Assembly (NCBI RefSeq): GCF_000761545.1
Contig: NZ_JPMY01000010.1
Location: 310,001-374,000 of the forward strand
Direction of reading: 5' to 3'
DNA from: Pseudomonas sp. ML96
Lineage (GTDB): Bacteria > Pseudomonadota > Gammaproteobacteria > Pseudomonadales > Pseudomonadaceae
DNA length: 64,000 bases
A program made the translations under genes and the position numbers. This document shows, piece by piece, positions 25,010 to 25,640 of this stretch. The notes under the pieces were generated by a model. It made no database searches. It had not been told where the DNA came from and saw nothing but the letters and a program-made list of their open reading frames with translations. The first letter of the stretch is position 1, and every line of letters starts with the position of its first letter.

Positions 25010-25441
25010 TTAGCGATTGCAACCGTTAGCTTTAGTCACATCCAGGGTACCGGTAACCGCCAGGGCAGCCGCCTTACCTGCTTTATCCAGAGCACCGCAC
25101 TGGCTGATGCTGCCGCCCAGCGAGGTACCAGTGTATACGCCGTAGCCTTTATTGTTACCTACAACCACACCGAATACGGTCGGGTTATCGACGACGCCGA
25201 CCGCATTGTTGGCGGAAATCACGAAATCAAATTCGTTCTTAACAAAACCACCGCGGTTGGCAACCGGCAGCAAGGTACCGATAGAAGGAATATTCGCAAC
25301 TGCAGCAGCGGCAATAATGCTGTTGTAGCCGTTATTCAGCTGAATATCACCCAAGTCTTTAGAGTTTTCAGTAGTGGCAAAAGCACCCGAAGAAGCCACA
25401 ACACTCAGCGCAGCCAGAGAAGAAATCAGAATCTTTTTCAT
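25010..25441 (-). CDS. Secreted globular pilin subunit candidate (PilA-C-like)
   Basis: 143 residues with a clear Sec signal peptide MKKILISSLAALSVVASSGAFA, cut before TTEN (the signal is given to residue 22; key features are KK, hydrophobic core and AFA). The mature ~121 residues are rich in Gly, Asn, Val and Ala and end with a pair of cysteines (SQCGALDK ... NGCNR) 24 residues apart, like the C-terminal disulfide loop of type IV pilins. It has no prepilin leader. It starts 16 bases after the short pilin stop with its own GAGG site. I infer that it supplies the globular domain that the short pilin lacks. It could alternatively be a pilus-associated secreted protein. Confidence 0.7.
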   Translation of the reverse strand: MKKILISSLAALSVVASSGAFATTENSKDLGDIQLNNGYNSIIAAAAVANIPSIGTLLPVANRGGFVKNEFDFVISANNAVGVVDNPTVFGVVVGNNKGYGVYTGTSLGGSISQCGALDKAGKAAALAVTGTLDVTKANGCNR

Positions 25442-25457
25442 ATCAATATCCTCAGGC

Positions 25458-25640
25458 TTAGTTAGATTGAGCGATAGCGCCGGTCATGATGTTACGGGCA
25501 TCGGACTGAGCCGATTTGTCATAGCCCTTTGCCTGGTATTCCTGGAACTGCGGAATGGCAACGGCAGCGAGGATACCGATGATCGCAACCACGATCATCA
25601 GCTCGATGAGGGTAAAGCCCTTCTGAACTTTCTTCGACAT
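25458..25640 (-). CDS. Short type IVa pilin, N-terminal helix only (PilA-N-like)
   Basis: 60 residues. Leader MSKKVQKG, then FTLIELMIVVAIIGILAAVA, the classic PilD-cleaved type IVa pilin start with Glu5, followed by about 30 residues of helix ending ARNIMTGAIAQSN. The mature 52 residues stop where a normal pilin enters its globular domain (normal PilA is about 150 residues). The region AKGYDKSAQSDARN resembles Geobacter PilA-N. It holds the exact position and orientation of pilA, divergent from pilB, with a sigma54 promoter in front. Together with the next gene it appears to be a split major pilin, not a decayed one. Confidence 0.85.
   Translation of the reverse strand: MSKKVQKGFTLIELMIVVAIIGILAAVAIPQFQEYQAKGYDKSAQSDARNIMTGAIAQSN

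Follow-up and report, generated by a model that had tools for sequence, protein, structure and literature searches.

A probable two-gene pilin at the pilA site of Pseudomonas sp. ML96, found in two classes with an ATP-binding cassette transporter module across the Pseudomonadaceae

In the present study, a split pilin is described in Pseudomonas sp. ML96, in a 64,000-nucleotide stretch of contig NZ_JPMY01000010.1 (hereafter the window, to which the coordinates refer). The site that usually holds the full-length major pilin gene pilA is occupied by a real pair of genes: pilA-N (25458..25640, minus strand), encoding a 60-aa prepilin, and pilA-C (25010..25441, minus strand), encoding a 143-aa partner. 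This pair replaces the full-length pilA. We consider it probable, at roughly 0.82, that the major subunit of the type IV pilus, a hair-like fibre on the cell surface, is made here from two separately encoded chains, with PilA-N as the core and PilA-C as a head that coats the fibre. The arrangement is not a single oddity, as split pilins form two classes across the Pseudomonadaceae, together with an ATP-binding cassette (ABC) transporter module.

PilA-N has the leader MSKKVQKG and a helix-only mature part of 52 residues, which begins after the predicted cut behind Gly8 with FTLIELMIVVAIIGILAAVAIPQF... and contains Glu5. The prepilin N-methylation motif was recognized by PF07963 (43 bits, cut-off 21.2) and TIGR02532 (40.9 bits, cut-off 16.3), and PF00114, the domain of full-length Pseudomonas pilins, was not matched by PilA-N. 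Among the sequences of solved structures, Geobacter PilA-N chains scored highest (63.7, 60.1 and 57.5 bits); the P. aeruginosa-type pilin 1oqw reached 42.7 bits. The start of pilA-C follows the pilA-N stop by 16 bases in a different reading frame and, judged by eye, is preceded by a ribosome-site-like GAGG and opens with the MKK...AFA shape of a signal peptide. The mature domain of PilA-C, a class I head in the terms used below, is modelled as beta-rich and contains Cys115 and Cys141; searches of Pfam and NCBIfam gave no family above cut-off for this protein, and a search of PDB sequences gave no match. All these features of the two frames (the 60-codon helix-only pilin, its leader and Glu5, and the 143-codon partner with a ribosome-site-like stretch, a signal-peptide shape and a late cysteine pair of its own) had been noted in a first-pass annotation of this DNA and were seen again here. 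Its placement of the pair at the pilA position, divergent from pilB, was likewise borne out: pilB (25827..27584, plus strand) matches TIGR02538 above cut-off with 842.8 bits, and tRNA-Thr and nadC lie on the far side. The site between pilA and tRNA-Thr is the usual setting of the standard Pseudomonas PilA. Here the same slot contains no PF00114 pilin, two chains in its place, and a transporter module between pilin and tRNA.

The replacement of the full-length pilin is supported at the genome level. A second, full-length pilA elsewhere in the genome would have spoken against the first-pass reading, and none was found with PF00114 in the ML96 genome. The genome contains 14 genes with an N-methylation motif, namely PilA-N, four minor-pilin or ComP-like genes in the window, five genes similar to those of the mannose-sensitive haemagglutinin (MSHA) pilus and four of type II secretion, so that the other 13 belong to other clusters. 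The type II secretion cluster contains GspE, GspJ and GspK above cut-off. The five-gene cluster (G000:C6:204000-220000, L175) reads as an MSHA-type pilus, with a secretin piece that best matches MshL at 205 bits, below the cut-off of 250; this strain may therefore make two kinds of type IV pilus. PF00114 was also absent from 43 of the 44 split-pilin genomes; the exception, G615 (73% complete), has a match on another contig. In the family sample, 122 of 148 genomes contain PF00114, and at least eight of the 26 genomes without it are split genomes. This near-exclusion indicates that the pair takes the place of the major pilin, and a survey based on the standard domain would report pilA as missing from about one in ten of the Pseudomonadaceae genomes sampled.

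PilA-C is a conserved protein. A search of 5.8 billion proteins with the single sequence recovered five relatives, and a profile built from these five recovered at least 106 homologues at E ≤ 0.01, a lower bound, as is the count given below for class II, since both head-profile searches scored only the best candidates. The named organisms among these class I matches are all Pseudomonadaceae, e.g. Pseudomonas alcaligenes, P. anguilliseptica, P. peli, P. knackmussii, Stutzerimonas chloritidismutans and Atopomonas hussainii. In a 102-row alignment (A2: the window protein and 101 of the 106 matches, excluding the short or partial P0005, P0074, P0096, P0097 and P0102), the columns conserved at 90% or more include K2, K3, A22, C115 and C141. 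Of 398 family genomes, the wide class I profile matched 10, which belong to 3 of the 19 genera, and the narrow profile adds G258 from the genus sample. In all 11 class I genomes (ML96; L023-L030, L032; G422 = L118), the head is immediately preceded by a PilA-N whose mature part has 52 residues. Given the homologues, the conserved columns and this constant neighbour, PilA-C is not a chance open reading frame (ORF). Narrower queries under-count, because the single PilA-C sequence recovered only the ML96 genome among 149; the narrow alignment A1 gave five matches in 398 genus genomes, four intact (ML96 included) and one frame-broken (L013, E 3e-4). A pattern scan of named genomes with A1 yielded 597 candidate stretches, none confirmed, and no plasmid sequence was matched by tblastn with PilA-C. 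Beyond the family, a Burkholderiaceae metagenome-assembled genome (MAG; L102) has a class I-like head (class I profile, E 6.9e-10), though its ATPase groups with class II. Lampropedia hyalina (L106) likewise has a class I-like head (E 1.5e-17) beside a short pilin, and no transporter gene was matched within the fetched 20 kb; at 9177-10159 of this locus, the head lies between two short pilins with mature parts of 53 and 54 residues.

A search with the downstream permease revealed the second class. It identified 43 of the 398 sampled family genomes, 10 of class I (57-100% permease identity) and 33 others (33-40%), and the total is a lower bound, as split pilins with other heads or without this transporter escape such a search. 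In all 33 class II loci, the mature PilA-N is exactly 52 residues long, and the head is followed by permease, third protein and ATPase. The head itself is different, a cysteine-rich protein of about 145 residues with several conserved cysteines and a start resembling a signal peptide (recognized by script in 32 of 33 and by eye in L168). With the 11 class I genomes, 44 split genomes are thus known in the Pseudomonadaceae, all with a 52-residue mature PilA-N. A class II profile search gave at least 149 matches, of which the 120 listed make up alignment A4; those with names include Stutzerimonas stutzeri, S. xanthomarina, Ectopseudomonas mendocina and a Thauera. In a profile-profile comparison, the two head classes scored 28.7, above all of 100 shuffled-column controls (largest 16.0). 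In eight class II loci (L143, L146, L155, L158, L159, L164, L167 and L170), a second short pilin with a mature part of 52-53 residues lies between PilA-C and the permease; this protein could be a second core subunit or a minor pilin.

The head is the most variable protein of the locus. In 21 of 23 pairs of loci with ATPases at least 93% identical, PilA-C was the least conserved of the compared proteins; the two exceptions were L024/L025, which are identical, and L170/L155, in which PilA-C and the permease are nearly level at 50%. These pairs were chosen by ATPase identity and are not independent, as 10 of them come from five genomes. The median identities were 97% for the ATPase, 96% for PilB, 83% for PilA-N, 81% for the third protein (19 pairs, as it is missing in four), 76% for the permease and 43% for PilA-C. 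At the DNA level, the window and its close relative G290 share 96% identity in the PilA-N bin, 56-66% in PilA-C, 71-92% in the flanks and 94-98% at 21.3-22.5 and 27.3-27.7 kb. As the permease and the third protein also diverge in the pairs, the variable stretch has its centre at the head but extends beyond it. Such a pattern suggests an exposed, exchanged surface domain. In Geobacter, pilA-C is also described as highly divergent and under positive selection in a passage of a review (PMC6201914).

The closest known counterpart is the pilus of Geobacter sulfurreducens and G. metallireducens (PDB 6VK9, 7TGG, 9EGP), which has the same order of a helix-only pilin and a separate beta-rich partner, and a closely similar PilA-N. 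The subunit of this pilus is stated to be a PilA-N/PilA-C heterodimer in a passage of PMC11046646. In AlphaFold models of both Pseudomonas head families, Geobacter PilA-C was the top structural match, at modest Z; a Foldseek search with the class II model returned no pilin among the best 50 matches listed. Unlike the core, the Pseudomonas partner is not recognizably homologous to its Geobacter counterpart in sequence, as neither phmmer nor a profile search of PDB detected Geobacter PilA-C, and the profile-profile comparison gave P 0.026 and 0.33. For the Geobacter set, the score was 17.7, and nothing rests on it, since two of the 100 shuffled controls gave higher values in the output, 129.8 and 136, probably through an error in reading the columns. 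The heads also differ in their cysteines, with a conserved pair in class I and several in class II, whereas five of eight delta-proteobacterial partners read (L033, L035, L043, L044 and L050) contain none in the mature part. Moreover, the mature core has 52 residues in place of the 61 given for G. sulfurreducens in the same passage of PMC11046646, and the Pseudomonas pair lies in an ordinary pil locus with pilBCD. The ML96 pair fits a Geobacter-type split major pilin in its helix-only PilA-N, its separate adjacent PilA-C with a signal-like start (by eye) and the lack of a full-length rival. Together with the Geobacter PilA-N matches and the likeness, at modest Z, of the modelled partner, this supports the split-pilin reading of the first-pass annotation. 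Its remark that no case had been described in Pseudomonas was too strong. Pseudomonas is named among genera with truncated pilins in a 2016 report (PMC5174107), in passages that name no Pseudomonas strain with such a pilin and no transporter and whose partner analysis covers eight Geobacter genomes. No description of the Pseudomonas partner, its transporter or their distribution was found among the titles and abstract openings of the open literature searched.

Herein, we propose that the two chains are assembled as follows. PilD would cut PilA-N after Gly8, and the 52-residue helix would polymerize into the fibre core. PilA-C might be exported by the Sec pathway, lose its signal peptide and form a Cys115-Cys141 disulphide. 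At the inner membrane, the adjacent PilGHI-like ABC module may assist the delivery or folding of the pilin chains. PilB and PilC would then build the fibre from the heterodimer, with the beta-rich PilA-C docked on PilA-N and coating the fibre. We infer that both chains stand in one filament.

Several other explanations have to be weighed against a two-chain subunit. PilA-C might be a periplasmic chaperone or stability factor that remains outside a fibre of PilA-N alone. Two published points favour this explanation: knock-out of the Geobacter partner gene may leave no PilA (PMC5174107), an outcome that a chaperone would account for as well, and a passage of the review PMC6201914 argues that PilA-C is unlikely to share the role of the pilin; the spacing of only 16 bases between the two genes is also in its favour. 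However, if PilA-C served as chaperone to a near-constant helix, one would not expect it to vary more than any other protein of the locus, as it does in 21 of the 23 pairs. In addition, two head families dissimilar in sequence both have as their best structural match, at modest Z, a chain that was solved inside Geobacter pili, where the heterodimer is stated (PMC11046646). We regard the chaperone as unlikely. A second explanation, that PilA-N forms a specialised filament, e.g. for secretion or signalling, and that PilA-C is an unrelated secreted cargo or adhesin travelling with it, draws on the absence of a recognizable family for PilA-C and on the adjoining ABC transporter. It appears less probable still, as the near-exclusion with the full-length pilin says that the pair replaces the major pilin, and the best structural match of the modelled head is one half of a known pilin.

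The pair could also be a degraded pilA, split by a stop or frameshift and with the rest overwritten, and the difference between the downstream frame and that of PilA-N would agree with such an event. Nevertheless, PilA-C begins at a start codon of its own, with a ribosome-site-like GAGG before it and the look of a signal peptide after it. Neither frame is interrupted in any of the 11 class I genomes, and 33 class II genomes repeat the arrangement with an unchanging 52-residue length. A broken pilA is very improbable and was rejected on the conservation of both frames across the two classes.

As a tentative proposal, more doubtful than not, we hypothesize a modular pilus, in which a dedicated ABC transporter loads interchangeable, separately exported heads onto a fixed 52-residue core; pilus-dependent phages or contact with hosts and surfaces would be the likeliest selective pressure. 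The task of the transporter and the reason for head diversity are both conjectural here. If this proposal is true, the exterior of the fibre could be swapped by the exchange of one small gene with the assembly core untouched. The two-chain pilin is known from Geobacter, where its meaning is tangled with the nanowire debate; its occurrence as the apparent major pilin of pseudomonads suggests that pilin splitting is not only about electron transfer. Class II heads in proteins named Stutzerimonas stutzeri and Ectopseudomonas mendocina (assigned by protein name) point to culturable strains for asking why the pilin is split and what a PilGHI-type transporter moves.

The transporter module follows the pair directly. 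The ABC-2-type permease (24137..24949, minus strand), best matched by Pfam ABC-2 families at 26.4 bits, just under the cut-offs, is PilI-like, although its assignment to PilG or PilI is presumptive; it adjoins the split pilin in all split-pilin loci. The third protein (23307..24236, minus strand) has no Pfam match and, by eye, a likely membrane anchor and helical repeats; it lies between permease and ATPase in both classes. The PilH-like ATPase (22417..23310, minus strand) matches PF00005 with 99.5 bits. In a tree built from 55 ATPases, well-supported branches (98/96 and 100/99) set class I and class II each apart from the rest, and the places of outsiders are unsure because of long branches. 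The module follows the pair in 44 of 44 Pseudomonadaceae split genomes, a link that is partly by construction, since class II was found through the permease, and independent only for class I (10 of 10, found through the head).

Beyond the family, all three module genes lie 3' of a short PilA-N in L034, L038, L040, L043 and L050 (Desulfobacterota, of which L038 was assigned to Myxococcota by the tree tool), at identities of 25-30% for the permease, 21-25% for the third protein and 37-44% for the ATPase, which comes first in L043 and L050. Several Desulfobacterota thus share the module with the window. Among six strong permease matches read outside the Pseudomonadaceae (E < 1e-25), five lie beside a 52-residue PilA-N, and L189 has none in the fetched flank. 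Of 24 loci with weak permease matches (L191-L198, L201-L216), nine have full-length pilins, one has another long N-methyl ORF and 14 have none in the short flank. In another set of 80 loci, taken among the matches listed, 11 have a pilin of 75 or fewer mature residues. The full-length pilins near these nine weak relatives indicate that the transporter is not exclusive to split pilins and is probably older than the split. As the closest solved kin of PilA-N are in Geobacter, PilA-N was likely imported with the module into the pilB-nadC slot.

In Myxococcus xanthus, PilG, PilH and PilI are encoded beside pilA. The order pilA-pilG-pilH-pilI likewise joins a pilin to ABC-transporter genes, which are required there for pili, and a passage of PMC3724824 describes the three proteins as essential for moving pilin across the inner membrane. 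The Pseudomonas module is PilGHI-like and has the same three members as delta-proteobacterial pilin loci; the Myxococcota sequences compared were those of a MAG locus (L082), which contains a pilin, PilD, and an ATPase and a permease 42% and 25% identical to those of the window. Unlike the two chains of Pseudomonas, Myxococcus PilA is a single large chain (PMC11046646, in part).

Several other features of the window surround the pair. The genes at 27589..28812 and 28812..29684 (both plus strand), which we take to be pilC, for the inner-membrane platform, and pilD, for the prepilin peptidase, were placed by ORF and position and are kept in relatives. The sigma54 promoter claimed by the first-pass annotation is weakly supported and not demonstrated: the site at 25701..25716 (minus strand) has two mismatches, one of them in the -12 GC, and the window contains 40 sites of that quality against a shuffle mean of 42.9, so there is no excess over chance. 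Under a relaxed pattern, 5 of 43 loci have a sigma54-like site upstream, namely the window and four relatives, with no class II locus among them; in random stretches the figure is 8 of 4000. The last gene of the cluster (21380..22411, minus strand) encodes an Acyl_transf_3 acyltransferase (PF01757, 101.5 bits), present in 8 of 10 fetched class I loci, whose target may be the pilin head or some other molecule of the surface; beyond the gene, tRNA-Thr (21279..21354, minus strand) borders the cassette. The acyltransferase varies with the cluster, at 42-97% identity. The minor-pilin cluster at 48543-55880 contains a 1313-aa, presumably PilY1-like protein and a ComP_DUS (PF16732) minor pilin at 55449-55880.
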